64,000 nt of DNA. Origin: Tateyamaria sp. syn59 (GTDB lineage Bacteria; Pseudomonadota; Alphaproteobacteria; Rhodobacterales; Rhodobacteraceae). The position numbers were made by a program, and so were the translations under genes. The notes under the pieces are model-generated. The model did not search any database and was not told where the DNA came from. It worked only from the letters and a program-made list of their open reading frames with translations. Positions 1-48,972 of this stretch are shown here, piece after piece (position 1 is the first letter of the stretch; every line of letters begins with the position of its first letter). Where the stretch lies: assembly GCF_007995245.1 (NCBI RefSeq), contig NZ_VCBA01000002.1, forward strand, positions 1 to 64,000, written 5' to 3'.

Positions 1-774
1 AAACAATCGGCAAAGTATCGTTATCAAAAGTTGTGCCACGCCCCCGCCTGCCGCGCGAGTCGAGAGTGGCAAGCAGCCCGCCATCGGCGTATCTTTGCAA
101 AGCGCGGGTCTAAACATGGGGCCAACCGCGCCCAGAACGAGGGCGTCCCGCGCCCCGCCGCCTACCACATTCTGCCCATGACGAAAGCGACCTCAACATG
201 ATGATTTTCATCAAAAAAAATAGCGAAAATCCCGCACTGTACGGCAAGTCAATGAGCTGCAAAAAGTCTGTAAAGCAGCATGCGGATCATTGAAGGCCAC
301 GGCGGAGTTGAAATGTGTAGTGCCATAGCTGCGGCAGCCCTTAGCTAAGCGGTAAGGAATGTCGTCAATGCGCGGGCTAGAGGCCAGCGCTTTGGTCGAT
401 GGTGGGTGTCTTCTTTGGGCTGTGTTTACATGCAAAAGCGGCAAGCCACTGACGATTTCGCGCAGCCTCAAAGGTTTCTAAACATCCTTACTTAACCTCT
501 TCAGATCGTTCTGCGCGCAGCACGCGTATCGCCGCACGTGCAAAAAATGCCCTGCTGTGCGGTGATGAGGGAAATGGAAGCCCCATAACCGGCAACAACC
601 CACAATTGTTGGCAGCAGCACTTTAAAAACGCCTCCCGCATACCAACCTTATTGCAAAGGCTGCGAGGATCAGCCACGCCAATACGCTCTGCCACCTCCC
701 GCTCGCCGTGCTTGATCGACGCCATGTCTTGGTGACCTCAAGTTCAGTTTGCTTTTGACAGCAAGGAGGCAGCG
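1..774. other. Unassigned 5' region without a confident gene
   Basis: No frame here is convincing as a gene. Plus-strand frames open at the left edge stop at about 180 and 201 and resemble no known family. A minus-strand frame starting at ATG 117 runs off the left edge and could be the start of a gene outside the window. A minus-strand stretch at 211-471 could encode 86 residues but shows no recognisable motif. A short dyad TGATGA-TTT-TCATCA lies at 199-213 before an A-run. Base composition is more AT-rich around 190-260. The 3' part must contain the promoter of the SufC-like gene, but I see no clear -35/-10 pair. Confidence 0.4.
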
Positions 775-1485
775 ATGTTGGAGATACGGGGCCTTTCAGT
801 TGCGGTAGGGGATCGGCCAATCCTCACCTCGGTCAATCTCACATTGCCGGAGGGCGAGCTGCACGTCCTTCTCGGGCCCAACGGCTCAGGGAAATCAAGT
901 TTGCTTGCAACGATCATGGGCTTACCGCCTTTCGACGTTGTCGGTGGGGATATCCTCTTTGACGGACAACCGATCCAGGATCTTGCACTGGATGAACGCG
1001 CACGATTGGGGATCGGGTTGGGCTATCAACGTCCGCCACGGCTCGGCGGTGTTTCCGTACGCAGCTTTGCAGAAGCTTTAGGCGCTGGGGAGCGTTTGGA
1101 ACGCGAAGCGGCTGCACTGAACCTTGGAGACTTCTTACACCGCGACATGAATGTCGGGTTCTCAGGTGGCGAAAGCAAGCGCTGGGAAGTCCTGAAGCTG
1201 GTACTTCAGGATCCCCGCCTTTTGCTGTTTGACGAACCCGAGAGCGGCGTTGATCTGGAGCATGTGAGCGCTGTGGGCGATGCGATCGCCCGGGTTGTGC
1301 GCGCGCCCGACAAGCAAGGGCGCATATGCTCCGGTCTCGTCATCACGCATACGGGCGTGATCCTGAAATACGTGAAGGCCGATTGCGCCCATATCATGCG
1401 GGATGGGCGCATCCTGTATTCTGGCGATGCCGAAGAGGCATTCGAGCATATTCAAACCGCTGGCTACACCGCACCCGCAGCTTGA
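775..1485 (+). CDS. SufC-like ABC ATPase (orphan Fe-S scaffold ATPase)
   Basis: Cytoplasmic ABC-type ATPase of 236 residues belonging to the SufC family, which powers Fe-S cluster assembly on a SufB/SufD-type scaffold rather than transport. Walker A GPNGSGKSS lies near residue 34. The SufC-type signature FSGGESKR, Walker B LLLFDEPESGVD and the H-loop VITHTG follow. The SGGE.KR.E pattern and the DEPESGVD segment separate SufC from true transporter ATPases, and no permease gene is nearby. ATG at 775 follows a strong AGGAGG. A SufB-like gene follows 29 bp downstream, so the two probably form an operon. It is clearly diverged from the SufC encoded at 43994-44749. The partner specificity is inferred. 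Confidence 0.85.
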   Translation: MLEIRGLSVAVGDRPILTSVNLTLPEGELHVLLGPNGSGKSSLLATIMGLPPFDVVGGDILFDGQPIQDLALDERARLGIGLGYQRPPRLGGVSVRSFAEALGAGERLEREAAALNLGDFLHRDMNVGFSGGESKRWEVLKLVLQDPRLLLFDEPESGVDLEHVSAVGDAIARVVRAPDKQGRICSGLVITHTGVILKYVKADCAHIMRDGRILYSGDAEEAFEHIQTAGYTAPAA

Positions 1486-1514
1486 ACGCGCGGGTCTGAT
1501 GAGGATGTTGTGAC

Positions 1515-2642
1515 ATGATCCCGACCGAACACTCCGTTCCCACCGCGCAGGACCTGAGCAATTCTCAGAGAAACATTCTATGCGATGTAGGGTTTGATGA
1601 TCAATCGAAACGGGCAGCGACAGGTATCCTGATTGATCGTGCCATGCGCATCGCGCGCTCCAACGATGCCGGTGTCGAAATCATGCCTCTGGCCGACGCC
1701 CTTCGGACCTATGATTTCGTTCAGGACCTCATGTTTGGCCTTGTGGCACCTGACGAAAACGAGCACGTTGCCAAGGTGGCCGAGCATATGCATGATCCGC
1801 TCGGCCACTTCATTTGGGTCAAAGCGGGCGCCAAGGTGACCTTGCCGGTGCAGAGTTTCACGGTTTTGGAAACGCCCCAGGCGAGGCAATTCACGCACGA
1901 TATTACACTGATCGACGAAGGCGCGGAGGTCGAGATGATATCGGGTGCCGCGGTGCCACATACCGTGCACAGGGGACGCCATATTTCCATTGGCGAGTGT
2001 TACATGCGTGCAGGCTCCTCATGCAAATCGGTGTCGATCGAGCACTGGGGCGAAGGCATGGAGGTGTATTCCTACGGTTATTCAAAGCTCGACGAAGATG
2101 CGCGGAACCAAGCGACGTCTGTTATGATGGCCCCTATCGCACGCAGCGTCAGCTTGTCCGTCTCCAAACTGGCGGCAGGGGCAAAATCCACAAGTCAGGC
2201 CATCGTTTTCGCCCCGGACGGGACCGAACGCCGGATTGAAACGGAGACACATCTGCTGGGTGCAGGCGCGACATCCGAAGATGTGGCGCGCATGGTTGCA
2301 GCAGGGGGAACCATCATCAACGTTGCACGCCTTGTTGGCGATTCCGCGGGCACCAGTGGGTTCCTTGGGTGCGATGGGCTAAAGCTGACAGATCGCGGTG
2401 ATATTGTGGCGGTGCCCGAACTCAAGGCCCGTGCCGAGGGTGCCATGCTGAGCCATGAGGCCAGTGTCGGCATTATTGATGACGAGAAACTCAATTACCT
2501 CATGGCCACCGGCATCGATGAAGATGCTGCGCGCGGTCTTATCATCCAGGGCTTCTTGTCTCTGAACAGCGATGCCATCCCGCCAACCTTGCGAGATCGG
2601 GTTGCGCAACTCATTGCAGATTCAAAGTCGGGAGGGATGTGA
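1515..2642 (+). CDS. SufB/SufD-like scaffold protein (short, orphan)
   Basis: 375-residue SufBD-family protein, much shorter than the canonical SufB (507) or SufD (424) in this window. The C-terminal core is recognisable: Cys286 in a GCDGL motif aligns with the QCDSL cysteine of SufB, and His314-Glu315 in LSHEAS align with VEHEAT. The Cys-to-Glu spacing is 29 residues, identical to the canonical SufB here (C417/E446) and to E. coli C405/E434, so the cluster-building residues look conserved. The long N-terminal SufB extension is missing. With the preceding SufC-like ATPase it resembles a minimal SufBC (SmsCB-type) scaffold. Whether it builds general Fe-S clusters or serves a dedicated target is unknown. 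Confidence 0.82.
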   Translation: MIPTEHSVPTAQDLSNSQRNILCDVGFDDQSKRAATGILIDRAMRIARSNDAGVEIMPLADALRTYDFVQDLMFGLVAPDENEHVAKVAEHMHDPLGHFIWVKAGAKVTLPVQSFTVLETPQARQFTHDITLIDEGAEVEMISGAAVPHTVHRGRHISIGECYMRAGSSCKSVSIEHWGEGMEVYSYGYSKLDEDARNQATSVMMAPIARSVSLSVSKLAAGAKSTSQAIVFAPDGTERRIETETHLLGAGATSEDVARMVAAGGTIINVARLVGDSAGTSGFLGCDGLKLTDRGDIVAVPELKARAEGAMLSHEASVGIIDDEKLNYLMATGIDEDAARGLIIQGFLSLNSDAIPPTLRDRVAQLIADSKSGGM

Positions 2643-2786
2643 AATATGGAGGGCTTGCTTTGATGCGGAGTTTAGCGGCTCCGTCAGAATGAGGTCGAAC
2701 CAACGGCATGCCGCTCAACCCGGCTGCGTGGCCCCGGCGCAGGCCGAAATCATCCAGGGCCAAGTGCCATAGTGCTTCGAACTGCT

Positions 2787-2836
2787 TTGCGAGCCGAGTT
2801 AAGTGTAGCTTCGCACAAATTGCGAATGGTTCGCAA
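2787..2836. promoter_or_regulatory. Cluster of TTGCGAA/TTCGCAA half-sites (candidate operator)
   Basis: Four related half-sites occur within 50 bp: TTGCGA at 2787, TTCGCA at 2810, and the perfect 17-bp dyad TTGCGAA-TGG-TTCGCAA at 2820-2836. The cluster lies 60-110 bp upstream of the membrane methyltransferase gene, where a promoter is expected. The regulator cannot be named from sequence. Confidence 0.5.
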
Positions 2837-2898
2837 ATAGACTAACCTCAATAAGCACTCAGCCAGCGTCCACGCCAGCGGTTCCCGCTTCACTGGTG

Positions 2899-3552
2899 AT
2901 GATATTCATGGTCGGCAAGTTCACCCCTTATGCTATTTTGGCAATCGTCACAGCCCTCGCATTTTGGCGCGACGCGCCCTACGCCAGCCTGCCGTTTCTC
3001 GCGTTTATGACGTCTTGGTACACCATTCGGATATGGCTCACGGACTCCACCCCTCTGGACGTCTCGGAGGAGCGTGATGCGACCAGAGAGCGCCTACTTG
3101 CGGCGGCTGTGGGTTTCGGCATGATCATCTTGCCACTTTTCGCGCTCGCCACACCTGTGCTTGATTTTGCAGCCTATTCGGCCACTAGTGCGCAGTCCGT
3201 GTTGGGCGGTGTGTGCGCACTTGCGGGTCTTTTTGTCTTTTTCCGCTCGCATGCCGATCTTGGCTCATTCTGGTCAGCACACCTAGAATTGCGCGAAGGC
3301 CATGCTCTCGTGACGACGGGTATCTACAGCCGCATGCGTCATCCAATGTATACGGCAATCTTTCTCATCACGATTGCCCAGGCGCTGCTCTTGGCCAACT
3401 GGGTGGCCGGGCCCGCCGGGCTCGTGATCTTCGCATTGCTTTACGTCGTCCGGGTCGGACCCGAAGAACGCATGATGGCGGAGCGGTTTGGCGCTGAATG
3501 GGAGGGCTACGCCAGCCGTACACCCCGCCTGCTCCCTCGGCTCAGGGATTGA
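2899..3552 (+). CDS. Isoprenylcysteine carboxyl methyltransferase-family membrane protein
   Basis: About 217 residues with five or so hydrophobic membrane segments. The C-terminal half carries the signature of the ICMT/phospholipid-methyltransferase family: the pattern TTGIYSRMRHPMYTA, then a hydrophobic hairpin, then GPEERMMAERFGAEWEGYASRT, which forms the SAM-binding end of these enzymes. The substrate is unknown; bacterial members methylate small thiols, lipids or isoprenoid acceptors. GTG 2896 and ATG 2899 are adjacent; the ATG is chosen, with only a weak ribosome-binding site. A striking cluster of dyad half-sites upstream suggests dedicated regulation. It converges with the RTX protein gene. 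Confidence 0.7.
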   Translation: MIFMVGKFTPYAILAIVTALAFWRDAPYASLPFLAFMTSWYTIRIWLTDSTPLDVSEERDATRERLLAAAVGFGMIILPLFALATPVLDFAAYSATSAQSVLGGVCALAGLFVFFRSHADLGSFWSAHLELREGHALVTTGIYSRMRHPMYTAIFLITIAQALLLANWVAGPAGLVIFALLYVVRVGPEERMMAERFGAEWEGYASRTPRLLPRLRD

Positions 3553-3663
3553 AATCGCCGGCGGCGTTGGAAACACCAATTACATCTTTTTTGAGTGGGG
3601 CGCCGCGCAACGGCTCTGCACACACAGGCAGCGTCGCGCATCAAACGGCGAGAGAAAGTGAGA

Positions 3664-3691
3664 GGCGGAAGCTGCACATGCAGCTCCCGCC
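3664..3691 (-). terminator. Strong hairpin between convergent genes
   Basis: GGCGG-A-AGCTGCA-CA-TGCAGCT-C-CCGCC forms a 12-bp stem with one internal mismatch. It lies 10 bp beyond the stop of the RTX gene and about 110 bp beyond the methyltransferase stop. There is no clean T-run on either side, so it may act as a transcript-stabilising or weak bidirectional terminator hairpin. Confidence 0.5.
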
Positions 3692-3700
3692 GAAGAATTG

Positions 3701-6700
3701 TCAGACAAAACTGAACATATCGGCACTCAACTCGTCCAATTGAGTGTTGCGCAATGTCAGGCTGTCTTCTGCGCTGAACTGGAATGTCACAGCCCGTGCT
3801 GACTGACTTGCGCTGGTAACAAGAGCCTCGAAGTCGCTGGTGCCTTCGATGTCGATCACGATCTGATCGGAGGAAAGCCAATCAAACCCGGTATCGAAAT
3901 CCCGGATCAGGTCATGTCCGCCAGTGAAGACAAATGTATCGCTGCCGAAGCCGCCTGTCATCCGGTCGTCCCCAGCACCGCCATCCAGCGTGTCGTTGCC
4001 AAAGCCACCGTTCAAGCGGTCATCGCCCGCACCGCCGAACAGCACATCGTAGGACCACCCGCCATTCAGCCGGTCATTGTCTGCGCCACCATCCAGCGTG
4101 TCCTGGCCCCAACCGCCATTCAGGCGATCGCGCCCTGCGTTTCCAAGCATTTCGTCATCCCCCCAGCCACCGTTAAGTCGGTCGTTGCCTTCACCGCCTG
4201 AGATCAGGTCATCGCCCGCGCGGCCATTGATGCGGTCGTCATCCGCACCGCCGCGCAACAGATCGTCGTCGAAGGTTCCACGATAGCGATCCTCGGATGC
4301 CGCCGCCTCCTCGGACGTGATGAAGTTGAAGGTGGATGTATCGCCTTCATCAATCCCCTCGAAGGCTTGCCCCTGATCGTCCAGAAATGCCCCGTCCTCA
4401 ATCTCAACCGCATACCGTGCGTCGGTGTCCAAATGAGATGGCGGTGTGACAGTGACGGTATCACCATCAAAGCTGACAAGACGGCTGTCGGTCACGTTGA
4501 TCTCGATTCGCTCGCCTGTGTCCCGATTGACCAGCGTGATCAGCCCTTCGCCCGGCTCGACCTCTTCCGTGAAAGTCAGCGTCAGCGCCGCGTCATTTCC
4601 CACGTCGCGGCCATTGTCCGAGGGCACAGCCGACAGCAGGAAGGGCGCGGGGTCCGCGTCAAAGTCGACTTCGCGCGGGACATAAACCGAGCCATCAGTG
4701 GAATAGCCAAGGCGCCCGTCCGAGTTCGAGCCCCAGGTGAAGATGGCACCCGTATCGCTCACCGCGATGATCGAGTTGGGCCCGGTCTGGATTTCGACAA
4801 TGTGCACATCATCAAGTTCCGCGATCAGGGTGGGCAGGAAGCTGACATCGCTCTCTGCTGCCGGATCGCCATCCAGCCCACCTGTGGGACCTTCATCATT
4901 TGGCCCCCAAGCATAGACATCGCCATCTTTGGTAAGCGCAACAGACCAGCGCGCGCCGCCCTGTATGTCGATGATACCCTCGGGCAATCCGGTCAGTTCA
5001 ATCGGTTCAGCGACATCGTCGGGGTTTGGCGAGAATGTACCGTCACCGTTATCTTCGCCCTGCAACAACTGCCCATTACGGCTCTCGCCCCAGCCAAAGA
5101 TGCGGCCATCGAACGTGATAGCATAGGATGTACGTCCCTCGCCCGAGATGGCCACGATGTTGTCCGGCAACCCTTCAATCAATGTCGGTTCTATCACGCG
5201 GCGCTCGTCGGATGGGCTGACCTGATTGTCGGTATTGCCGCCGAAGCCATAGACCTCACCATCCGCCGTCAGGACCAGGGTGTGCGTCACACCTGCGGAT
5301 ACAGCCACAACGGTTTCGTTGGACAGTGCGCTGATTTCGGTTGGGACAAGACGTTCTTCCTGATCGCCTGTGCCAAGCTGGCCGTTGGTGTTGCTGCCCC
5401 AGCCATAAAGCGTGCCGTCCGCAGCAATAGCAAAGGACGTACCATTGCCGTTTTCGATGCCAATGACGTCGATGTCGTCCAAGGCTTCGATCTTTGTCGC
5501 TGTCGTCCGCGCCTCTTCGTCACCCAGGCCAAGCGGGCCGCGGTTGTTGAAGCCAAAGGCGTACACATCGCCATCATTCGTCAGGAATGTGGTGTGCAAC
5601 AGCCCGCCCGCAACCGAGGTGATTTCGGCGTCAAACCCTTCCGGCAGCGACACCGGCAGCGGCGCTTTGACATCGAATCCGGTGGTGCCGTTGCCCAATT
5701 GGCTGACCACGTTTTCGCCGGAACTGTACAGCACCCCATCCCTCAGGAAGACAGAAAAGTGGTTGCCCGCGCCCACGGTGCTGGCCACGACCTGGGCCTC
5801 GCCCTCATAGGCTTCAACCGCGCGCGGGCGGACCAACTGACCGTCATATTGATCCGAGCCGAGGATGGTCGTCTCGCCTGCGTCAAAGAAATCGCCATCA
5901 CCGTTGAGGTTGGTCAGTTGGACTACGCTTGCGTCCCCGGCAAAGCTATTGGCGGTGAGGATGAGGCCCCCATCGTCATCTGTGGCCAGTGAGAAGCCGA
6001 TCTCCGCCAGGATGCCATCCGGCATGGCGCTCGCATTCCAGACCTCGACCGCTTCGAACACGTTGTCGATCTGTCCGGACCCGTCCAGATCGTTGAGACG
6101 GTAAATCTTCAACTCTTCATCCCCGTCCGGGAACCATGTGAGGGTATAGAGCGAGCCATCGACCGACACCGCACTTGATATGTCCACCGGAGCGCCAAAG
6201 CTCATGTCGTCCGAGATGAAATTTGTCACTTCTTCAGTCTGGATTGTGCCATCACCGTTCGCGTCTTCGATCCGGTAAATGACATCCGTTCCCGTTCCAG
6301 CCAGATCGTTGAGGTAGGCGATGTCGCCGTCAAAGCTGAGATCAAAGGGTACCGAGGTGTCGATCACCGTCTGGAGGTCGAGCCACACGGTCGCTTCTCC
6401 GGCGTCGTTTGCGTCCCCGTCGTCGTTGAGGTCAATGGTGCGGTAGATCGCGTCTTGCGGTGCCGACGCGGTGCCGGCGTTTGAGATGTATATGGCACCG
6501 TCAGCGCCTTCGGCGATGCCATTGGGTGTCACTGTGGAGAGGCCACCGGCATTGTCTGCCGAAAACCAAACTGTCGCTTCGCCCTCGTCCTGTGCATCGC
6601 CGTCGGCATTGGTGTCGATCAGGCGATAGATCGCATCTGTGGTGCCATCACCGACATAGACCGATTTGTCATCAGCCTGATGCACCGTGAAGACATTGTT

Positions 6701-6868
6701 CGTTGGTGTGTCGAGGCCGCTCGCGTTGTCTGCGTCAAAGAAGACAGTCGTTTCGCCGGGCCCTCGCGCCGTTCCATCACCATCCAGATCTTGCAAAAGC
6801 AACACCTGATCCTTGCGTTGGTCTGCGACCAAAACCCCGGCTATCGTCTGTTTGGATATGCGCCCCAT
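3701..6868 (-). CDS. Secreted RCC1-repeat / RTX calcium-binding protein
   Basis: 1055 residues from ATG 6868, chosen because GGGAG precedes it by seven bases; a longer frame to 6949 lacks a site. Residues 1-360 hold several acidic, EF-hand-like segments (DLDGDG, DTNADGDAQD, DLNDDGDAND, NLNGDGDF). Residues about 362-735 form seven or so RCC1-type beta-propeller repeats (for example LYGWGSNTNGQLGTGD). Residues about 740-850 look like an Ig-like SbsA/Big domain. Residues about 866-985 carry RTX nonapeptides (GGxGxDxLx, including unusual LNGGWG variants), followed by the C-terminal tail typical of type I secretion substrates. There is no Sec signal. No type I secretion genes are adjacent. Role is unknown; calcium-dependent surface or extracellular binding is inferred. 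Confidence 0.85.
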   Translation of the reverse strand: MGRISKQTIAGVLVADQRKDQVLLLQDLDGDGTARGPGETTVFFDADNASGLDTPTNNVFTVHQADDKSVYVGDGTTDAIYRLIDTNADGDAQDEGEATVWFSADNAGGLSTVTPNGIAEGADGAIYISNAGTASAPQDAIYRTIDLNDDGDANDAGEATVWLDLQTVIDTSVPFDLSFDGDIAYLNDLAGTGTDVIYRIEDANGDGTIQTEEVTNFISDDMSFGAPVDISSAVSVDGSLYTLTWFPDGDEELKIYRLNDLDGSGQIDNVFEAVEVWNASAMPDGILAEIGFSLATDDDGGLILTANSFAGDASVVQLTNLNGDGDFFDAGETTILGSDQYDGQLVRPRAVEAYEGEAQVVASTVGAGNHFSVFLRDGVLYSSGENVVSQLGNGTTGFDVKAPLPVSLPEGFDAEITSVAGGLLHTTFLTNDGDVYAFGFNNRGPLGLGDEEARTTATKIEALDDIDVIGIENGNGTSFAIAADGTLYGWGSNTNGQLGTGDQEERLVPTEISALSNETVVAVSAGVTHTLVLTADGEVYGFGGNTDNQVSPSDERRVIEPTLIEGLPDNIVAISGEGRTSYAITFDGRIFGWGESRNGQLLQGEDNGDGTFSPNPDDVAEPIELTGLPEGIIDIQGGARWSVALTKDGDVYAWGPNDEGPTGGLDGDPAAESDVSFLPTLIAELDDVHIVEIQTGPNSIIAVSDTGAIFTWGSNSDGRLGYSTDGSVYVPREVDFDADPAPFLLSAVPSDNGRDVGNDAALTLTFTEEVEPGEGLITLVNRDTGERIEINVTDSRLVSFDGDTVTVTPPSHLDTDARYAVEIEDGAFLDDQGQAFEGIDEGDTSTFNFITSEEAAASEDRYRGTFDDDLLRGGADDDRINGRAGDDLISGGEGNDRLNGGWGDDEMLGNAGRDRLNGGWGQDTLDGGADNDRLNGGWSYDVLFGGAGDDRLNGGFGNDTLDGGAGDDRMTGGFGSDTFVFTGGHDLIRDFDTGFDWLSSDQIVIDIEGTSDFEALVTSASQSARAVTFQFSAEDSLTLRNTQLDELSADMFSFV

Positions 6869-7246
6869 ATGGCAACTCCCGAAAATGAGAGAGTGCCTCG
6901 CGAATGGCTGGGTCCTCGATTTGAAAGAGATTGGATGCTGTGCACCCACGCGTTCTTTGGACCAATTTGGGACAGAGGTGAAGCCCTCAAAAGCACCGTT
7001 TCATGACACAATGACGCAAGGCTGACCGCATGATCGACAACGAGAGAATGGTCAGCGGACCGCACCATTCAAAATAAGCCAAAAACATACAGTGCCGTAT
7101 GTCGCGTCATTTGGGCTTGATCCAGAAATTTTGCGCTCGTGATTTCACTGAAGAGCGCTAATATCAACGGCATCCAGCCGGTCATGTAGTTTGCATCAGC
7201 ACGCATGAGGCCAGACAGCATCTAAACCCAAGACGGAACGCTGCAT
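6869..7246. promoter_or_regulatory. Divergent intergenic region of RTX gene and copper island
   Basis: This 378-bp gap separates the minus-strand RTX gene from the plus-strand binding-protein gene, so it should hold both promoters. I see one clear dyad (7085-7102). I checked it for a small peptide gene with paired cysteines of the methanobactin-precursor kind and found none. Confidence 0.5.
7085..7102. promoter_or_regulatory. Dyad ACATAC-N6-GTATGT (candidate operator)
   Basis: Perfect 6-bp arms around AGTGCC, 145 bp upstream of the family-5 binding protein start and about 215 bp upstream of the RTX start. Symmetry and spacing suit a dimeric regulator. The identity of the regulator is not evident. 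Confidence 0.35.
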
Positions 7247-9007
7247 ATGGGCCTACGGCTGATCTGGTGTTGCCTGGCATTGTGTTTTCAGCTCGATACG
7301 GCCAGCGCGGATGTCGTCCGCTTCTCGCCATTTGACGATGTGGGCACGGCCAAGGGCACTTTATCCTATACCAACGCATCCGCCCCCAGCAGCGGCACTT
7401 TGCGGCTTGGCAGCACGGTCAACTTCGACAGCACGAACTTTATGCGTTTTCCTGGACGTGCCCCCCACGAAATGCGTCATGCATTCGACACACTTCTGGT
7501 GCCTGTTCGTGATCAGACGGCTGTCTTTTATGGGCTCTTGGCCAAGGACTTGGACATCGCCGACGACTTCAGTTTCGTGCGTTTCCATCTGGAACCGGTT
7601 GCGCGTTGGCATGACGGACGCGCGGTAACCGCAGAAGACGTTGCCTTCACCTTCCAAAGTCTCCGCGCGCATGGATTGCCGCGCTATCGCAACGCGCTCC
7701 GAAACATAGACATTGAAATTAAAGATGCGCACACGATCACGTTCAAAAACCGTGGTGCACGATCATGGCGGTACATCGAACTGCTGGGGACGTTTCCAAT
7801 TCAATCCAAGGCCTTTTGGTCCGCACGCGCAGTGGGTGACATCACACTTGACATTCCATTGGGCAGCGGCCCCTACCGGGTGTCGGAGTTGAGCTTCAAC
7901 AGAGAAATGGTTCTGGAGCGGGTCGAGGATTACTGGGCCGCCGATCACCCCGTCAATCAGGGGCGCTGGAACTTTGATGAGATCGTCGTCAGCTACTTCT
8001 TTGACGAGACAGCGCTCATTGAGGCGGTAAAGAGCGGACGCCTCGACGTGCGCAGGGAGTTCTCGGCCGCCGCTTGGGATGGGCGTTACGACGGCGATGC
8101 ATTGAGTTCAAACCGCATCGTTAAGACCACCCTTCCCCGCGCCGATGCAGGTGCGCTTCATACCTTGGTGATCAATCAGCGTCGTCCGCCTTTTGATGAC
8201 ATCAGGGTCCGGGAAGCACTTGGACTGCTGTTTGACACGCAGTGGTATCTTGATCTGTTTGGCGGTGCATATGATGCGCCCGGTAGCTTTTACGGTGATA
8301 CACCCTTTGCGGCTATTGGTTCGGCGTCCGCAGCAGAACGCACGTTGCTTGCGCAATTCGCGGAGCAGTCTCCACAAGGCGCTGTAGACAGTCCTGCGCC
8401 CCAGTGGCCAGAACAGCGACGGCAGCGCATGCGGAGGGCTAACGCCCTTTTGGATGAAGCGGAATTTGAACTTCGCGGCGGTGTGCGGATCAATCCGATT
8501 ACGGGTGACCCTTGGACCGTTGAATTCGTAACGGCACACCGCGCCTCTGTGGAACGTCTTGAGCCGTACCGCAAAGCACTTGAACAGGTCGGCATCCAGC
8601 TTGACTTACGCGCATATGACTATGTGTCGGGGCGCCGATTGATCCTTGATCACGAATATGACCTCACACTTCTCACGTGGCAGGCTTCCATTCCTCCGGG
8701 TGTGCAGGAAACCTGGTTCTGGCATAGCGATCAGGCCGGGCCACACGGTTACGGGTTGGGTGGGCTCAACAACCCGGCTGTCGATTACATGATCGACCAA
8801 ATGCAGGTGGCAAAGGATCTGGAGGACCTGCAAGCAGCGGCACGGGCGTTTGACCGGTTGATGCGGTGGGGGCACTACGTCGTACCGATGTGGCACAATG
8901 CCAGTCTTTGGTATGTGCATGGATCCGATCTTCGCATCCCCGTGGGTGGACATGTGGAAACCGACCCGATTGTTCACTGGTGGCGCGCACCTCCTCCTGA
9001 CAACTGA
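7247..9007 (+). CDS. Family-5 extracellular solute-binding protein (YejA/MbnE-like)
   Basis: Periplasmic binding protein of 586 residues, with an N-terminal Sec signal ending near TASA (residue 21). The family-5 (oligopeptide/nickel) hallmarks are present: LRLGSTVNFD near the start, VARWHDGRAVTAEDVAFTFQSL near residue 120, the GSGPYRV segment, and a C-terminal NPAVDYMIDQM block. The length and the RFPGRAPHEM segment fit the YejA-like subgroup that binds modified peptides; the methanobactin binder MbnE also belongs to family 5. No permease or ATPase gene is adjacent, so the protein must share a transporter encoded elsewhere. It precedes a TonB-dependent receptor by 89 bp, suggesting uptake of a peptide-like chelate. 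The substrate is inferred from context only. Confidence 0.82.
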   Translation: MGLRLIWCCLALCFQLDTASADVVRFSPFDDVGTAKGTLSYTNASAPSSGTLRLGSTVNFDSTNFMRFPGRAPHEMRHAFDTLLVPVRDQTAVFYGLLAKDLDIADDFSFVRFHLEPVARWHDGRAVTAEDVAFTFQSLRAHGLPRYRNALRNIDIEIKDAHTITFKNRGARSWRYIELLGTFPIQSKAFWSARAVGDITLDIPLGSGPYRVSELSFNREMVLERVEDYWAADHPVNQGRWNFDEIVVSYFFDETALIEAVKSGRLDVRREFSAAAWDGRYDGDALSSNRIVKTTLPRADAGALHTLVINQRRPPFDDIRVREALGLLFDTQWYLDLFGGAYDAPGSFYGDTPFAAIGSASAAERTLLAQFAEQSPQGAVDSPAPQWPEQRRQRMRRANALLDEAEFELRGGVRINPITGDPWTVEFVTAHRASVERLEPYRKALEQVGIQLDLRAYDYVSGRRLILDHEYDLTLLTWQASIPPGVQETWFWHSDQAGPHGYGLGGLNNPAVDYMIDQMQVAKDLEDLQAAARAFDRLMRWGHYVVPMWHNASLWYVHGSDLRIPVGGHVETDPIVHWWRAPPPDN

Positions 9008-9096
9008 CAGTTGTCTATTGCCTTTCAGCCGGTCGCTGCTAACTTTTTCCGGGACCCACCGTTTTGGCAGGCAGGACAAAACGCTCGGGGGCTATC

Positions 9097-11283
9097 ATGA
9101 AGATATCGGTTTCATTCGTTTGGGCACGCACTCTGTCCATGCAGGTCAGTTGTGTGGCATTGCTCGCCTCAACAGCGCATGCACAACAAGGCAATCAAGA
9201 ACCTTTCCAACTGCCAGATCTGATCTTTGAATCAAACCGGGACGCGACACCGATTGATGAGGTGCCACGTGCCGTCAAAAGCATCGACCAGACCGAAGTC
9301 GAAGATGCGGGCAAGACCAGCACGAATTTCTCTCAGACACTGCCACAGATAATCCCCGGCTTCGGCACACCGGTTTTCCAGAATGCGACACGCGGATTAA
9401 CGCTGCGCGGGCGCGATCCTCTGTTTCTTGTGGATGGCATTCCCCTGTCCAGCGCCTTTGGCGTCCAGTTCCAATATTTTGATCAACGGTCTATCGACAG
9501 CATCGAAGTGCTGTACGGACCCACAGCACTTTACGGTCAGGGCGCATCCGGTGGCGTCATCCAGTTTTTTACCAAGGATCCGACAGAGGAGCAGGTCAAC
9601 CGGATCACCACGGGCTTTACGACGTCGCTGGCAGATGGGAGCGCCTTCGATAATGAAAGCTTCAGCTACCGGTTCAGCGCGGAAACGTCGGGCCGGGTCG
9701 AGGACTTTGGATATGTCGGTGTGCTGAGCCTCGAACGGCACGGTGCCCATTTCCAGTCCGACGGTCAGCGGATCGCGCCAACACGGCTCGATGATTTCGA
9801 TGATGCCAGCGTGTTCGGCAAGTTTGTCTACGACATCGATGCCACGCAATCCGTCGAGGGCCTGTTGAGCTACGCGCGCTCCACCGCGCGTGCCACGGAC
9901 TTTACCAACACGGCTTCCGAAGGTCCGGATCCGACCGCAGTCGCACTTTTTGCCCCTCAACAATACAACGATGAGCCAAGGCAAGAAGGCACGTTTGCGT
10001 CATTCAGTTATCTCAACTCAGACCTGGCAGGCGGCGATTTCAAGTTTCAGCTTTACTACTCGAGCGAGGAACTCACACAGATCGGCGGCGATATTCGCGC
10101 AGCGCAGGGCCCGGGCCCCAACGATCTCCCGGAGTTTTGGCCAGGTTTGTTTCAGACCAACGGCGCCACCGAAGCCATCGGTGTGCGCGTCGATTACAGC
10201 ATTGATGTCAGCGACACGTTCAAGCTTAATGTCGGCGCGGATTATCGGGACGAAAGTGAGGTGTTGACTGTCGGCATTTCGGACCCTGCGGTGTTTGACG
10301 CAACCGGTCTCTTTGATGCCTCGGACAGCGGCCCACAAGCGCCGCCCGTCGACATTGAGTCCTTTGGCCTTTTTGTGCAGGGCGCCTGGGATGTGGCGGA
10401 CCGCGTCACCCTGACAGGCGGCGTCAGGTACGACAGTTTTGACTTCTCGGTCGGTCCCGCAGAGCCCGTGTTCTCAAGAGACCCGGGCTTCAGACCGGGC
10501 GGCGATGGAAGTTCGGACGGTTTTTCGTACAACCTTGGCGTTCTTTATGACCTGAACCCAAACACCACGCTCTTCGCAAGTTTCGCCCAGGGCTTTTCCT
10601 TGCCGACCATCAATTTCGCAGCAGGATCCGTCGCACCAGGCGTACCGCTATCTGGGACGAACCTGCTCGAACCAATTGTCGTCGACAGTTACGAGGTCGG
10701 GGTACGCGGAGCGATTGGACTGACGGACTATTCATTCGCAGCATTCTACGCTGAGTCAGATCTGGGCTCATCAGTTCGCGTGGACGCGGCCACCGGCGGA
10801 GGGCGGCTGGAACGGGCACCGCAACGCAACTACGGCTTTGAGTTCGAAGCAGCGCGGCCCATTTCGGAAACGGTCAACCTTGGCCTAGGTGTGTCCTGGA
10901 ACGATGGTGAGAACGACGCCGATAATGATGGTGAGTACCTCGCCCTCTCCAGCCTGACTGTGCTGCCTTTGAAGGTCTCACTGAGTGCCGACTGGCAAGT
11001 CACGCCAAACATGAAACTGGACGCGATTATCTTCTACCTCGGTGACCGAGACAGGGCATTTGACGATGGCGTCGATAGTTTTGAAGCCGAAGGATATGTG
11101 ACAGCGGACCTGGGTCTGACCTATTCCTTCGATAATGGATCAGAGCTTGCCGTTCGTGCCACCAATATCTTCAATGAAGCGTACATCCCCCTGGAAAGTC
11201 AGTCACGATTTGGCGTAACCGCCGACCGGCGCTTTGCAGGTCCGGGACGAGAGCTGTCAGTAAACTATTCATTCTCTTTCTAA
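9097..11283 (+). CDS. TonB-dependent outer-membrane receptor
   Basis: 728 residues from ATG 9097, which has GGGG five bases upstream; a TTG 33 bp earlier opens the same frame but is less likely. A signal peptide ends at AHAQ. The plug domain is clear: VPRAVKSIDQTEVE, LTLRGRDPLFLVDGIPL, and IEVLYGPTALYGQGASGGVI. The remaining 550 residues are amphipathic beta-strand, ending in the terminal Phe of an outer-membrane barrel (VNYSFSF). It resembles siderophore receptors. Its place between a family-5 binding protein and copper genes suggests it imports a metal chelate, possibly a copper complex, but iron chelates cannot be excluded. Confidence 0.88.
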   Translation: MKISVSFVWARTLSMQVSCVALLASTAHAQQGNQEPFQLPDLIFESNRDATPIDEVPRAVKSIDQTEVEDAGKTSTNFSQTLPQIIPGFGTPVFQNATRGLTLRGRDPLFLVDGIPLSSAFGVQFQYFDQRSIDSIEVLYGPTALYGQGASGGVIQFFTKDPTEEQVNRITTGFTTSLADGSAFDNESFSYRFSAETSGRVEDFGYVGVLSLERHGAHFQSDGQRIAPTRLDDFDDASVFGKFVYDIDATQSVEGLLSYARSTARATDFTNTASEGPDPTAVALFAPQQYNDEPRQEGTFASFSYLNSDLAGGDFKFQLYYSSEELTQIGGDIRAAQGPGPNDLPEFWPGLFQTNGATEAIGVRVDYSIDVSDTFKLNVGADYRDESEVLTVGISDPAVFDATGLFDASDSGPQAPPVDIESFGLFVQGAWDVADRVTLTGGVRYDSFDFSVGPAEPVFSRDPGFRPGGDGSSDGFSYNLGVLYDLNPNTTLFASFAQGFSLPTINFAAGSVAPGVPLSGTNLLEPIVVDSYEVGVRGAIGLTDYSFAAFYAESDLGSSVRVDAATGGGRLERAPQRNYGFEFEAARPISETVNLGLGVSWNDGENDADNDGEYLALSSLTVLPLKVSLSADWQVTPNMKLDAIIFYLGDRDRAFDDGVDSFEAEGYVTADLGLTYSFDNGSELAVRATNIFNEAYIPLESQSRFGVTADRRFAGPGRELSVNYSFSF

Positions 11284-11613
11284 GCCTTCGTCCGGATAAG
11301 CGGTTTGGCACGACGGGGAAGCATTTGCGGCTGGATGACCATGGTCGAGTGACCGCCAAGTGCCTCCCTTAGTTCGTCAAGAAGCGCTGAAGATGAGGTG
11401 TGGCCCGCCTCTGATCTGATATTCAGAGGCGCGCATGCTGCTGCTTCTCATACCGATGAGATAGCTGATATCGACATAGCCCGCGCCGAGGTCGAATGCG
11501 ACTCGCCAATGCTCGGTCCGCTCTATTTACCCGACTGCGCGCAAGGCATTTCCGCCCGGCTGCGACACTCTAAGCCTAGTGCTGTGTGGACAGTTGGTGG
11601 TATTCTCTTGCCA
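11284..11613. other. Gap with possible degenerate minus-strand coding remnant
   Basis: 330 bp between the receptor gene and the DUF2946 gene. Two overlapping minus-strand frames read like protein but are broken by stops: one ends at 11280-11282 with LLDELREALGGHSTMVI, the other holds a stretch reading DLGAGYVDISYLIGMRSS. A single frameshift near 11440 would join them, so this could be a decayed gene tail. I cannot name the family. The plus frame of the downstream gene stays open here but lacks a start with a ribosome-binding site. Confidence 0.25.
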
Positions 11614-11970
11614 ATGATTAAAGCGCTCCGCCAAATTTGGTTCAAAGGACTGCTCGCAACTATTTTGGTTGTCGCGAGCATGCACTTTGCGGGCCATTCG
11701 GTCCGGGCGGAAGCGAACGACCCCGAGCTCGCAGCCTTTCTTGCCATGGGCGGCACATCCGACGATCTGTGCCTGATCAGTGAGCGTGCGCACGATCATT
11801 CGCACTGCCCGTTTTGCCGCGAGTTGGACGTCTTTGTCCTGGCAGATCAGAATGTGGCTCCGGCGCTTATTGCTGCTGTGGGTTTCACAACTGTTCTGCC
11901 CTCGAAACACGTCTTTGCGAATGCCATGCGCGACGTCCGACCACCGGCGCGCGCACCTCCAACAGCATAG
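11614..11970 (+). CDS. DUF2946-like small protein, probable copper-locus accessory
   Basis: 118 residues from ATG 11614, chosen because it directly precedes a hydrophobic N-terminal segment (LLATILVVASMHFAGHSVRAEA) that looks like a signal or membrane anchor. The open frame extends upstream to 11398 without a good start. The conserved part is HDHSHCPFCREL, the His/Cys-rich CPxC motif typical of DUF2946, a family repeatedly found beside copper chaperones and TonB receptors. The motif could bind copper in the periplasm. It sits between the TonB receptor and mbnP, supporting a metal-related role. Function is not experimentally defined in this family as far as I know. Confidence 0.65.
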   Translation: MIKALRQIWFKGLLATILVVASMHFAGHSVRAEANDPELAAFLAMGGTSDDLCLISERAHDHSHCPFCRELDVFVLADQNVAPALIAAVGFTTVLPSKHVFANAMRDVRPPARAPPTA

Positions 11971-12039
11971 TCTCCCTCAAACCTGACTGACACATTCCGC
12001 AACTCCGACAGCTGCGGGCGACTTTCTTTTGGAGGACCT

Positions 12040-12924
12040 ATGACACGGTATCTTTTGGCTGCCGCAATGCTGGCAGCGCATCCCGCATGGGCGGATCAAT
12101 CCGTCGAAATCACATTCGCGGCCGAGCTTGATGGCCAGCAATTCTCCTGCCTCGAGACCTATGAAGGTGTCGGGGCCGGCCCACTCCCCATCCAGGTGCT
12201 GGACTACAGGATGTTTGTGTCCGAACCCGCGCTTCTGAAAGCCGATGGTACGGCCGTGCCCATGGCGCTGGAACAAGACGGCGCATGGCAGGTCGAAAAC
12301 ATCGCGCTTCTCGATTTCGAAAACGCAACCGGCTCTTGTACCAATGGTACAGCCGATACCAATATGACACTGCGCGGAACGGTGCCCGAGGGCACATACG
12401 CCGGCCTCAGCTTCGCGATTGGTGTGCCGTTTGACTGGAACCATGGCGATCCTACGGTCGCGCCCTCCCCTTTGAACCTGACGGCTATGTTCTGGAACTG
12501 GCGCGCGGGCTACAAATTCATAAAGTTCGAAACCAGCCCGGTCATGGGCGACGGGATGAACATGGCGTCGACGACCCACAGCGAGAGCGATGGCCATGGC
12601 GATACTGCGGCGTCGGGCTGGTTCTTGCACCTCGGATCGACCATGTGCCCGGCTCCGTCCCGGACTGAGGCGCCGACAGAAGCTTGCGCCAATCCCAACG
12701 TCATGCAGGTCGTTTTTGACGACTTCGATCCGGCCAATCATGTGGTTGTCATTGATCCCGCGCCGGTCATCGCAGGTGCCGATCTGGCCACAAACGCACC
12801 GGAGACGAGCCCCGGTTGCATGTCGTTCCCCAACGATATCGACTGCAACACTGTGCTGCCTCGGCTCGGATTGGCATTCAATGAATTCGATGCTGAAGAC
12901 CAGCTTCTTGCATCGGTCAGGTAG
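12040..12924 (+). CDS. mbnP: MbnP-family copper-binding periplasmic protein
   Basis: 294 residues with a Sec signal (AHPAWA). It matches the four-Cys member of the so-called metallo-mystery pair: Cys37, Cys100, Cys203 and Cys216, plus Cys260 and Cys269, and the diagnostic block FWNWRAGYKF (Trp152, Trp154, Tyr158, Lys159) followed by FLHLGS with His197. In characterised MbnP a tryptophan is oxidised to kynurenine by the partner MbnH and the protein binds copper. A His/Asp/Met-rich insert (about residues 168-190) is seen here. ATG 12040 follows GGAGG. The mbnH gene starts 6 bp after the stop, so they are cotranscribed. Confidence 0.88.
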   Translation: MTRYLLAAAMLAAHPAWADQSVEITFAAELDGQQFSCLETYEGVGAGPLPIQVLDYRMFVSEPALLKADGTAVPMALEQDGAWQVENIALLDFENATGSCTNGTADTNMTLRGTVPEGTYAGLSFAIGVPFDWNHGDPTVAPSPLNLTAMFWNWRAGYKFIKFETSPVMGDGMNMASTTHSESDGHGDTAASGWFLHLGSTMCPAPSRTEAPTEACANPNVMQVVFDDFDPANHVVVIDPAPVIAGADLATNAPETSPGCMSFPNDIDCNTVLPRLGLAFNEFDAEDQLLASVR

Positions 12925-12930
12925 GCCGCC

Positions 12931-14118
12931 ATGGCTTTGCGATATGCTTTGCTGAGGCCAATCGCGGGTCTGGCACTGGCGGTGACGCCCGCCAGTGCCG
13001 ATCAGAGCGATCTGGGCTTTCGCTGGTTGATGCCCGCATGGCTGGCGCCGCCGCCGGTGCCGGACGACAATCCGATGAGCGTCGAGAAGGTCGAGCTTGG
13101 GCGACACCTGTTCTATGATGCCCGGCTGTCCGCGGATGGCACGGTTGGGTGCGTGTCGTGTCACGTGCAGGAGCGTGCATTTACCGATGGGCGTGCGCTT
13201 TCAGTTGGCGTCTTTGGGACTGCGGCCGCACACAATGCACCGAGCCTTGCAAACGTCGGCTACAACCCGGCGCTGACATGGGCCAACCCGCACGCCGATA
13301 CGCTGGAGTTTCAGGCCCTCTTTCCGCTCTTCGGGACCGGTCCTGTCGAGATGGGCATGGCCGGAAAAGAGCAGGAACTGTTCGCGCGTCTGACCGCTGA
13401 TGACTACTACCCGGATGCTTTTTCTGCGGCGTTTCCAGAACGCGACGGCGCGATCGACCTGTTTACGATCACCCGGGCCTTGGGCGCGTTCCAAAGATCC
13501 ATGATTTCGGTCGACAGCCCTTATGACCGCTACAAGTACGGCGGCGACCGCTCGGCGATGACGGAGGCCGCATTGCGGGGCGAGCAGCTGTTCTTTGACC
13601 ATCGGTTTGAATGCTACCACTGCCATCTTGGTGTGATGTTCACAGACAACCTGCAGACCGCTCGCTCCCCCTTTGTCGAGACTGCGTTCCACAACAACGG
13701 GCTCTACAATATCGGTGGAACAGGTGCCTATCCACCAGGGGCGCAAGGGCTGGCCGAGTTTACCGGGCGCGAGCAGGACATTGGCATGTTCCGCACGCCG
13801 TCCTTGCGCAATGTCGCTGTCACCGCCCCGTACATGCATGACGGTTCCATCGAGACGCTGCGCGAGGTGATCGAACACTATGCGGTGGGCGGTCGGACAT
13901 TCAATGACGGACCCTTCGCAGGTGTTGGCGCGAACCATCCCAACAAAAGCGGACTGCTCATTGGGTTCAAAGCGACGGAGCAAGAGGTGGAAGACCTGAT
14001 CGCATTCCTCGAAAGCCTGACGGACGAAACGTTTCTGGAAAAGCCCGCTTACGCCGACCCGTGGCCGGAGGATCATCCAGCGCGTGCAATCCGCGCGATG
14101 CCGGAGGTTGTCAACTGA
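12931..14118 (+). CDS. mbnH: MbnH-family dihaem cytochrome c peroxidase-like enzyme
   Basis: 395 residues with a Sec signal (TPASA). Two c-type haem sites are visible: CVSCH at residues 74-78 and CYHCH at 228-232. The fold order is that of the MauG/bacterial cytochrome c peroxidase superfamily. MbnH enzymes use a bis-Fe(IV) state to oxidise a tryptophan of MbnP to kynurenine. Supporting blocks include RTPSLRNVAVTAPYMHDG and the late LIAFLESLTDE. Short length and the pairing with mbnP distinguish it from detoxifying peroxidases. The stop overlaps the next start by one base (TGATG), indicating translational coupling. Confidence 0.9.
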   Translation: MALRYALLRPIAGLALAVTPASADQSDLGFRWLMPAWLAPPPVPDDNPMSVEKVELGRHLFYDARLSADGTVGCVSCHVQERAFTDGRALSVGVFGTAAAHNAPSLANVGYNPALTWANPHADTLEFQALFPLFGTGPVEMGMAGKEQELFARLTADDYYPDAFSAAFPERDGAIDLFTITRALGAFQRSMISVDSPYDRYKYGGDRSAMTEAALRGEQLFFDHRFECYHCHLGVMFTDNLQTARSPFVETAFHNNGLYNIGGTGAYPPGAQGLAEFTGREQDIGMFRTPSLRNVAVTAPYMHDGSIETLREVIEHYAVGGRTFNDGPFAGVGANHPNKSGLLIGFKATEQEVEDLIAFLESLTDETFLEKPAYADPWPEDHPARAIRAMPEVVN

Positions 14119-14939
14119 TGCAGAGGATCCTGTTTCTCATCCTGGCAATGTCGTGTGCAGCGCCTGCTATTACCCACGAGTATCTCGTCGGCACACTCGC
14201 AATCATTCATCCCAACACGCACCCCACCGGGCCAAACGGCGACTTGGCAAAAGGGTATATGGAATTGTTTAACGGTGGATCAGAACCTGAGCGTCTGCTT
14301 GCAGTACGCTCGGGGATTGCCGATGTCTCCTTCTTCGATCCAAACGCGGATGATGGGCACGGGGCGCGGGTTGGAGACGCGATTGAGATTGCGCCCGGTC
14401 AATCGGTTCTTTTGAGACCAGACACGTTGCAAATCCGCTTTGCGGGATTGGTCGATCCTCTAAGGGTCGGAGACAAGTTCCTGACAACTCTCGTTTTCGA
14501 AAGTGTCGGTGAGGTGACTGTGGAGTTCTGGGTTGAAGGTATCGCCGAAACGCAGCCTGACCCGATCCCCGCTGCTGTTCCGAACACTCGCCCAGAACAG
14601 GTGGCGGAGGCGGCCATCACCGCGCAACTTCTTGCGCGTCTGGGTGCCGACACCGATGTCGTAACTGTTTCAGTTGCCGGTTCGGCGGCGGTTGCAGGAT
14701 GGATGCAGGGCGAGGACGCGGGACGCGCCTTTCTGCGGCAACATGAGGAAGACTGGCAGCTGATGCTTTTATCCGGGGGCAGCCTCGTGAGCCCGGCGGG
14801 CTTGCGCGCTCAGGGGTTGTCACCGCGTCTCGCAAACGAGCTTCTCGAGACGATTCAAGGCGATGACGCAAAACTGCCCATTGAAACACGACACCAAATC
14901 GACTCCTTCGAAGGCACGCTGATCCTCACAAATGAATGA
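14118..14939 (+). CDS. Degenerate PCuAC domain fused to copper-uptake-associated domain
   Basis: 273 residues from ATG 14118, which overlaps the mbnH stop; a signal peptide ends near ITHE. Residues 20-142 follow the PCuAC (DUF461) fold: GYMELFNGGSEPERLLAV, IEIAPGQSVLL, GDKFLTTLVFE. However, the copper ligands are lost: the His of VTLH is Phe73, and the HxM pair is replaced by Gln105 and Arg107. Residues about 155-273 (VAGWMQGEDAGRAFLRQ and the SPAGLRAQG segment) resemble proteins annotated as copper-uptake-system associated. The fusion suggests a structural or partner-binding role rather than copper carriage. It is followed 45 bp later by an intact PCuAC gene. Confidence 0.65.
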   Translation: MQRILFLILAMSCAAPAITHEYLVGTLAIIHPNTHPTGPNGDLAKGYMELFNGGSEPERLLAVRSGIADVSFFDPNADDGHGARVGDAIEIAPGQSVLLRPDTLQIRFAGLVDPLRVGDKFLTTLVFESVGEVTVEFWVEGIAETQPDPIPAAVPNTRPEQVAEAAITAQLLARLGADTDVVTVSVAGSAAVAGWMQGEDAGRAFLRQHEEDWQLMLLSGGSLVSPAGLRAQGLSPRLANELLETIQGDDAKLPIETRHQIDSFEGTLILTNE

Positions 14940-14984
14940 ACGCGGCGCTACCGGCGCTCCGCACCAAGTCAGAAGGAACACGAC

Positions 14985-15458
14985 ATGAAACGTTTGATAC
15001 TCGCATCCGCCCTAACCCTTTGTGCCACCGCGGCCCTCTCACACGACTTTAAAAGCGGTTCTCTGATCGTTGATCATCCGATGGCCTTCCCGACGATGGC
15101 GACTGCCATGTCCGGCGCCGGATACTTTTCGGTCACCAACACGGGCACTGAAGACGACCGGCTTATCGGCATCCGCGCCGACTTTCCGCGAGTGACGCTC
15201 CACGGAACCACAAACGAAGATGGTGTGATGAGGATGTTCGACATCGACGCGATTGATATCCCCGCAGGTGAAACTGTCGGCCTCGAACCGGGCGGCAAAC
15301 ACATCATGTTCATGGGACTGAGCGGCGATACTTTTGAAGTCGGCGATGAAATCCCTGCGACGCTGGTCTTCGAAAAAGCAGGCGAGATAGACGTTGTCTT
15401 CTACGTGGAGCCTCGCGGCGGCGCATCAGATGAGGTGGATCATTCCGCGCATAATTGA
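14985..15458 (+). CDS. PCuAC periplasmic copper(I) chaperone
   Basis: 157 residues with signal peptide (TAALSH). The family copper motif H-X10-M-X21-H-X-M is matched exactly: His73, Met84, His106, Met108. Other features are GAGYFSVTNTG and the terminal beta-strand LVFEKAGEIDVVFYV. PCuAC proteins accept Cu(I) in the periplasm and help load the CuA or CuB site of cytochrome oxidase. A short His-containing tail (DHSAHN) follows the domain. ATG 14985 is preceded by AGAAGGA. It ends the copper island, and its intact ligands contrast with the degenerate PCuAC domain encoded just upstream. Confidence 0.92.
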   Translation: MKRLILASALTLCATAALSHDFKSGSLIVDHPMAFPTMATAMSGAGYFSVTNTGTEDDRLIGIRADFPRVTLHGTTNEDGVMRMFDIDAIDIPAGETVGLEPGGKHIMFMGLSGDTFEVGDEIPATLVFEKAGEIDVVFYVEPRGGASDEVDHSAHN

Positions 15459-41639: not shown

Positions 41640-41640
41640 C

Positions 41641-42716: not shown

Positions 42717-42719
42717 GGC

Positions 42720-44749: not shown

Positions 44750-44854
44750 GATACGTTCCTCGTCCTGCGCGATACCGCGCGTTATTTCAATTTGATGGCT
44801 CTGTCGTGGGCAGTGGCCGTTTACACTGAGCCGTCCACTATCCGGTGGTCTTGA

Positions 44855-45184: not shown

Positions 45185-45220
45185 CGGGTCAGGCTCCGCT
45201 CTTGTGGGTGGGTGTCTCGG

Positions 45221-45808: not shown

Positions 45809-45811
45809 CTG

Positions 45812-47335: not shown

Positions 47336-47364
47336 GTCAGACTTTCCTCTCGCATCTGAGCGGT

Positions 47365-48408: not shown

Positions 48409-48475
48409 CACTTCCCTGTTTCAAAAAAAATGCCGGGGGAGTCGCGCCAGCGACGGGGGCTGGCCCCCTCGGGCA

Positions 48476-48937: not shown

Positions 48938-48972
48938 CGCAAAGCCCCCAATTGACGTTACCCGCCCAAACC

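Follow-up and report, generated by a model that had tools for sequence, protein, structure and literature searches.

Do the copper proteins MbnP and MbnH of Tateyamaria sp. syn59 work as one system with the receptor and binding protein encoded beside them? We analyzed a 64,000-nucleotide stretch of this genome (contig NZ_VCBA01000002.1, positions 1 to 64,000; here, the window), in which seven genes run along the forward strand from 7247 to 15458. They encode a family-5 binding protein (the binder), a TonB-dependent receptor, a DUF2946-like protein, MbnP, MbnH, and two PCuAC-domain proteins. A sequence-only reading had joined them into a single copper acquisition island with MbnE/MbnT-like uptake. 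Translations and Pfam and NCBIfam profiles bear out all seven genes as it placed them and, as it also said, we saw no permease gene beside the run. However, we consider it likely that the run comprises two neighboring transcription units: a copper-starvation operon (unit 2, 11614 to 15458) and a separate uptake pair, most likely of the iron-siderophore type (unit 1, 7247 to 11283).

The boundary between the two units

We scanned genome contigs for relatives of the receptor using a few short peptide patterns, so more loci may exist than the three we found. Two of these are close, one in Tateyamaria sp. ANG-S1 (92% identity) and one in a Shimia metagenome-assembled genome (MAG) (81%), and the binder is present in both (94% identity in ANG-S1, locus L044; 73% in the Shimia MAG, locus L045). 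By blastn, window positions 573 to 11282 align with positions 500 to 11219 of L044 at 90.1% over 10,729 columns. This block ends one base before the end of the receptor open reading frame (ORF), which places the synteny breakpoint inside the receptor stop codon (11282 to 11283). Upstream of the pair, ANG-S1 has the same genes as the window (SufC- and SufD-like by eye, and an RTX/RCC1 protein). Downstream, it has opposite-strand genes that look like sugar transport and catabolism, one of them with a confirmed binding-protein domain. Window DNA from 18247 onward, beyond unit 2, lies on another ANG-S1 contig.

We found no MbnP within the two fetched 20-kb loci and no MbnP match in the ANG-S1 or Shimia MAG genomes, a weak absence given that the profile was silent in all 14 controls too; MbnH was not searched for there. 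Relatives of the receptor are rare. Matches at 1e-40 occur in 2 of 390 genomes of the order and 2 of 372 of the class, with syn59 itself counted in each, in a survey that scored at most two candidates per genome among the matches shown.

Unit 2 has its own distribution. MbnH matches at 1e-80 or better in 8 of the 390 order genomes and NF033672, a domain family encoded in unit 2, in 11 of them (own genome included in both counts), and neither turned up in the 8 further genomes of the genus that were listed. This patchiness suggests that unit 2 was probably moved horizontally. None of the nine other Rhodobacterales MbnH loci (seven from the order genomes plus two plasmids, in fetched stretches of 14.8 to 21 kb) contains a TonB receptor detectable with our profile. 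Together with the two genomes that have the pair and no MbnP match, this argues against the claim of one system shared by receptor, binder, MbnP, and MbnH. In P. seriniphilus (L047), the order is MbnP-MbnH-NF033672-PCuAC-SCO-SCO. MbnP went undetected by our profile at the MbnH loci L051, L099, and L100, and also at L072.

Across the class sample, MbnH occurs in 12 of 385 genomes, own included, and 5 of the 11 other loci have a receptor in the stretch, one of which is BtuB-like, under its cut-off, and on the opposite strand. Importers thus do join MbnP-MbnH elsewhere, but they are of other kinds than unit 1. Operons that combine a receptor or FecCD permease with MbnP-MbnH show that an importer beside the pair is not odd in itself. 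At L092 and L096 to L098, a CruR-like leader, a TonB-hemin-type receptor, MbnP, and MbnH all run the same way; we noticed no methanobactin genes there (none were searched for), and uptake of copper chelates is more plausible at these loci than in the window. Two further loci, L095 (2989 to 8453, forward) and L021 (3909 to 10183, reverse), have a CruR-like gene, Peripla_BP_2, FecCD (in L095 also an ATP-binding cassette [ABC] ATPase), MbnP, and MbnH, in what appears to be an ABC importer built into the operon. Upstream in L021 are genes that look like CbiM/HupE by eye.

A probable copper operon with a CruR-like leader

The copper role that had been assigned to MbnP, MbnH, and PCuAC fits our results and is strengthened by the leader. 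MbnP (12040 to 12924) scores 266.9 bits against TIGR04052 (cut-off, 140) and matches PDB 7l6g (E 1.5e-36) in an alignment that takes in the WNW region. MbnH (12931 to 14118), a MauG-like di-heme enzyme with two CxxCH motifs (CVSCH and CYHCH in the translation), scores 467.8 bits against TIGR04039 (cut-off, 362.85) and matches PDB 6e1c (E 1.5e-112). The next gene (14118 to 14939, where 14118, from the translation, is the probable start) encodes a PCuAC-like domain (PF04314, 48 bits) fused to the NF033672 "copper uptake system-associated" domain (70 bits; cut-off, 50). An intact PCuAC copper chaperone follows (14985 to 15458; PF04314, 105 bits). The prediction of one fused and one intact PCuAC is therefore confirmed; the copper-ligand motif Hx10Mx21HxM is exact in the intact protein and missing from the fused one. 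A sigma-70 promoter scan was uninformative (1 site in 12 kb versus 5.1 expected from shuffles).

Upstream of mbnP lies a leader ORF whose likely start is ATG 11614 (11614 to 11970; 118 amino acids). It begins 330 bp after the receptor stop and is followed by MbnP, MbnH, and PCuAC, so that by position it would be the first gene of the copper operon. It contains CPFC, a 44-residue spacer (45 in CruR), RAPP, TA, and the stop. The sequence-only reading had called it DUF2946. The gene is there and has CruR-like motifs, but its Pfam score is below the gathering score (19.4 versus 23.7 bits), and we therefore call it CruR-like. Among seven other MbnP-MbnH leaders scanned, only the one in L096 exceeds that score. 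A second weak DUF2946-like ORF (17.8 bits) lies in L041 (8756 to 9124, reverse), downstream of PCuAC, at a locus that also has a leader upstream of MbnP.

According to passages of Roy et al. 2022 (PMC9426467), CruR, a DUF2946 protein, senses copper through CXXC, and the authors inferred that stalling at the C-terminal RAPP keeps the operon on at low copper. The arrest was later shown in vitro, with two prolines in the P and A sites, and RGPP also stalls in other arrest peptides (PMC12992588). CruR-headed operons with MbnP-MbnH are already in print, and the CruR paper lists MbnPH and PCuAC among the follower genes, as in the window (PMC9426467). Unit 2 is a member of this published kind. Like Bordetella pertussis cruR-bfrG-bp2921, it opens with a DUF2946-like gene in which about 45 residues separate CXXC from a RAPP near the C terminus, and copper genes follow; in contrast to that operon, mbnP rather than a receptor gene comes next, and the intergenic distance is 69 bp rather than 162 (PMC9426467).

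We found support for the assignment in searches of the window and of other loci. A profile built without the window sequence gave 11398 to 11970 as its sole match among 369 window ORFs (E 3e-8). The CXXC-RAPP pattern (spacing, 40 to 50) has a single occurrence in the 64-kb window, and 50 mononucleotide shuffles of that sequence gave one in total. Beside MbnP-MbnH, 13 of 15 leader candidates have CXXC and R[A/G]PP 44 to 46 residues apart, a count that is not blind, as the candidates were picked with a CxxC-type filter or by eye. The leaders of P. seriniphilus and L095 have R[A/G]PP and failed the CXXC-spacing pattern. In a systematic scan, 14 of 26 MbnH-bearing stretches match the pattern; in 12, the match precedes MbnP or its importer (three of these near-identical, L096 to L098), and in L049 and L073 it falls after MbnP-MbnH. 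Two of 21 other stretches match (L022 and L024); both are NF033672 loci and so not clean negatives. In L049 and L073, two Methylocystis iwaonis plasmids, the match (13288 to 13677, forward) lies between MbnH and a sigma-factor/methanobactin-precursor gene and may be chance or a leader of methanobactin genes.

The leader RNA may also take part in the control. We folded positions 11930 to 12050 and found that CCUCCAA, over both RAPP proline codons, is predicted to pair with UUGGAGG, which contains the mbnP Shine-Dalgarno sequence (stem, 11956 to 12035; z, −2.6; 2 of 200 shuffles as stable). The stem is predicted by a single folding model. Of the 15 leaders, 7 have a Shine-Dalgarno sequence within 90 nucleotides and form the testable set; the other 8 lack a Shine-Dalgarno sequence plus start codon within that distance, and their pairing was unscored. 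The expected number of paired Shine-Dalgarno bases, out of 6, is 5.8 in L047, 5.2 in L021b, 5.0 in the window, 4.0 in both L041 and L091, 2.9 in L095, and 0.3 in L040. Pairing is thus strong in five of the seven and half in L095. Summed over all seven, it is 27.1, compared with means of 11.6 for synonymous recoding and 4.4 for dinucleotide shuffles, with 0 of 200 as high in each case. Leader by leader, the share of recoded copies that reach the same value is 0.020 for the window, 0.005 for L047, 0.050 for L021b, 0.110 for L041, 0.155 for L091 and L095, and 0.190 for L040; for shuffled copies, it is, in the same order, 0.040, 0.005, 0.025, 0.030, 0.060, 0.030, and 0.200. The gene after the leader encodes MbnP in the window, L040, L041, and L047 and a binding protein in L021b and L095 (L091 is unassigned).

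We tentatively propose that alphaproteobacterial MbnP-MbnH operons have CruR-like leaders whose stall codons (CCU CCN of RAPP, or the tail right after) act as an anti-Shine-Dalgarno sequence. At low copper, the stalled ribosome would sit over these codons and open mbnP, a design that would couple the response direction of CruR to an RNA switch of the SecM/CutF type, instead of relying on Rho alone. Stems that hide a Shine-Dalgarno sequence are published for CutF (PMC9973294) and SecM (PMC10987492). As in SecM-secA, a C-terminal arrest motif lies upstream of a hidden Shine-Dalgarno sequence; the differences would be that the signal is copper and that the arrest codons themselves are the predicted anti-Shine-Dalgarno sequence (PMC10987492). 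We found no description of arrest codons in this role in CruR leaders in passages of PMC9426467, PMC12992588, PMC9973294, and PMC10987492, and it may be a new, testable RNA detail.

According to our main reading of unit 2, in low copper the ribosome would stall at RAPP and the genes downstream would stay on, with the mbnP ribosome-binding site kept open, Rho blocked, or both. The predicted Shine-Dalgarno pairing distinguishes the window from CruR. Copper bound to CPFC would free the ribosome. In this family, maturation of MbnP by MbnH converts a tryptophan to kynurenine; here, MbnH would likewise oxidize a tryptophan of MbnP to form its copper site, and PCuAC would hand copper on to cuproenzymes of the periplasm.

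Unit 2 resembles known MbnP-MbnH pairs in that its two proteins are adjacent and above both cut-offs. We found no methanobactin genes near it. Isolated pairs of this sort, which occur well outside methanobactin producers and in some cases near MbnT-like receptors, were described by Kenney and Rosenzweig 2013 (PMC3621798). The claim that methanobactin biosynthesis is missing stands in part. PF05114 (MbnB/TglH/ChrH, DUF692) has a single match in the whole genome, in a bufferin-like gene, and MbnC (TIGR04160) has none, a weak absence given that the model was silent in all 14 controls too. Our searches covered MbnB and MbnC, and MbnA was not searched for. We considered whether another part of the genome might conceal a methanobactin locus and rejected this, as the neighbors of its sole DUF692 gene are a small ORF containing Cys, DUF2063, and DoxX. 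That locus (L030, 5351 to 8025, reverse; own genome, G000:C1, about 113.3 to 116.0 kb) has a four-cysteine, exported-looking small ORF, which we take to be a bufferin precursor, and would be a second copper-related system of ribosomally synthesized and posttranslationally modified peptides in the same genome. The methanobactin operon of Methylocystis parvus OBBP (L048) also has receptor, MbnP, and MbnH on one strand. In contrast to it, the window has no MbnB or MbnC that we found (the MbnC control being silent), and its receptor is in another clade; the CXXC-RAPP leader pattern has no match in L048. Several plasmid records name MbnH di-heme proteins "methanobactin export MATE transporter MbnM," an annotation error that affects the P. 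seriniphilus MbnH.

The binder and receptor of unit 1

The receptor (9064 to 11283; from the translation, its start is probably ATG 9097 rather than 9064) scores 134 bits for the Pfam barrel and 52 for the plug. Its best NCBIfam scores, for TIGR01783 (169.4 versus 223.5) and RhtA (148.2 versus 1,100), are both under the cut-off. A tree of 20 rows places the receptors of the window, ANG-S1, and Shimia in a 100/100 clade of nine rows that also holds receptors of Leptolyngbya, Picosynechococcus, Thalassospira, Diaphorobacter, and G033 and a second Shimia receptor. Among the four plasmid relatives whose surroundings were read, those of Leptolyngbya, Picosynechococcus, and Thalassospira adjoin iron-siderophore transport genes, and that of Diaphorobacter does not. 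The window receptor thus resembles RhtA/IutA-type siderophore receptors in its best-scoring families and tree neighbors; unlike them, it is under all NCBIfam cut-offs and is partnered with a YejA-like binder. In the own genome, six of seven plug-domain TonB receptor matches lie within about 66 kb (G000:C9, about 32.9 to 99.0 kb; L065 to L068).

The sequence-only reading had called this receptor MbnT-like. The tree, which holds one MbnT only, that of M. parvus, rejects this: MbnT is in a separate 97/94 clade, both clades being starred, and groups inside it (99/96) with an FhuA/FoxA-type receptor of the own genome and two Trichormus receptors. By blastp, 81 residues of the window receptor align with MbnT. 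Four of the five MbnPH-linked receptors in the tree form their own 100/100 clade, and the position of the fifth (L090), on a long branch, is uncertain; the two that were scanned are of the TonB-hemin type (444 and 436 bits).

The binder (7247 to 9007; 586 amino acids; SBP_bac_5, 189 bits) appears about equally close to YejA and MbnE. Over its full length, it scores 285 bits (1e-83) against YejA and 270 bits (4e-79) against MbnE in PDB; for the C-terminal half, the scores are 126 for 3lvu, 116 for MbnE, 113 for 4ony, and 112 for YejA. In a half-length tree, MbnE is placed beside the window clade at 73/77 only, and MbnE is nearer to other YejA-like proteins, among them a second binder of the own genome (42% identity, versus 30% to the window binder). 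The binder is best called YejA/MbnE-like; an MbnE identity in particular is not supported. Family-5 binders also occur near other MbnH loci, a YejA-like one at L038, on the opposite strand with a single intervening gene, and weak ones at L039 and L094; we used these neither way.

For the substrate and permease partner of unit 1, we infer that receptor and periplasmic binder would most likely import an iron-siderophore-type chelate, probably ferric, and that the binder would probably dock on a YejBEF-type permease encoded elsewhere. The own genome has a YejABEF-type operon (YejA-permease-permease-ATPase; L064, G000:C6; permeases and ATPase named by eye) and, on contig C2, an apparently orphan YejA-like gene. 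YepA, an alternative binder feeding YejBEF, is a precedent (PMC10128002). In the Shimia MAG, the pair has two siderophore-interacting reductases before it and, directly behind it, another siderophore-like receptor (214 bits; cut-off, 223.5); 8 kb further on is a FecCD permease.

Elsewhere in the window, a 1,082-amino-acid RCC1-repeat protein with RTX calcium-binding repeats is encoded at 3701 to 6949 (reverse) and is also found in ANG-S1, and two Suf/Isc-like iron-sulfur assembly gene sets lie at 775 to 2642 and 40419 to 48979 (by eye from the translations).

Alternatives and significance

In a single island, receptor and binder would bring foreign copper chelates to MbnP, MbnH, and PCuAC. The genes are adjacent and on one strand, receptor-MbnP-MbnH runs exist in L092, L096 to L098, and M. 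parvus, MbnE is a related family-5 binder, and both CruR-receptor copper operons and uptake of foreign methanobactin via a second receptor (PMC9601215) are published. Other Alphaproteobacteria do have a TonB receptor of a different kind directly before MbnP-MbnH, and isolated pairs occur near MbnT-like receptors (PMC3621798), both in favor of the sequence-only reading. We nevertheless regard a single island as improbable: the CruR-like leader comes after the receptor and not before it, synteny breaks between the units, the MbnPH-linked receptors belong to another clade, and two genomes have the pair but gave no MbnP match, weak as that absence is. Iron-gene neighbors and neighborhoods that differ between relatives are, in part, what that reading had itself named as evidence against it.

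We consider it unlikely, though less far-fetched, that unit 1 imports a peptide-like compound or non-iron metallophore through the YejA-like binder and YejBEF. The binder's likeness to YejA, the operon at G000:C6, and the implication of YejABEF in sensitivity to antimicrobial peptides (PMC10924461) favor this; in contrast, the receptor is of the siderophore type and lies near iron genes in Shimia. For unit 2, the leader could act like Rhodobacter capsulatus CutF, so that copper raises expression and the operon serves copper tolerance. CutF is DUF2946-like, comes from a Rhodobacter, and has a stem-loop that hides the next gene's Shine-Dalgarno sequence (PMC9973294). We think this very doubtful, as the window has CXXC and RAPP at CruR spacing, where CutF has CxxxC and another proline-rich tail, and has MbnP, MbnH, and chaperones downstream with no multicopper oxidase.

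Several observations weigh against a copper-starvation operon beside a separate iron-siderophore-type pair. Both units run in the same direction, so read-through into unit 2 is possible, and our reading is sequence based. Four of the 11 class-level loci, three of them from one genus, have a receptor directly before MbnP on the same strand, and importer genes stand directly before MbnP in L095 (Peripla_BP_2, FecCD, and ABC) and L021 (Peripla_BP_2 and FecCD-like). The weak grouping of the binder with MbnE was not rejected. In the Shimia MAG, non-iron genes (aldo/keto reductase, SnoaL-like, and LysR) separate the receptors from FecCD. We found no TGA-N9-TCA box, an iron-responsive motif, in the three regions upstream of the binder, which leaves any iron control hypothetical. 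As for the RNA, pairing fails in L040 (0.30 of 6 bases), and with synonymous recoding only three of seven leaders reach 0.05 alone.

We conclude that the tempting view of this locus as a copper-chelate importer is probably wrong. The widespread MbnP-MbnH pair gains a directly testable candidate regulator. If it is true that the stall codons double as an anti-Shine-Dalgarno sequence, the arrangement would be a compact one and may recur in other arrest peptides that sense metals.

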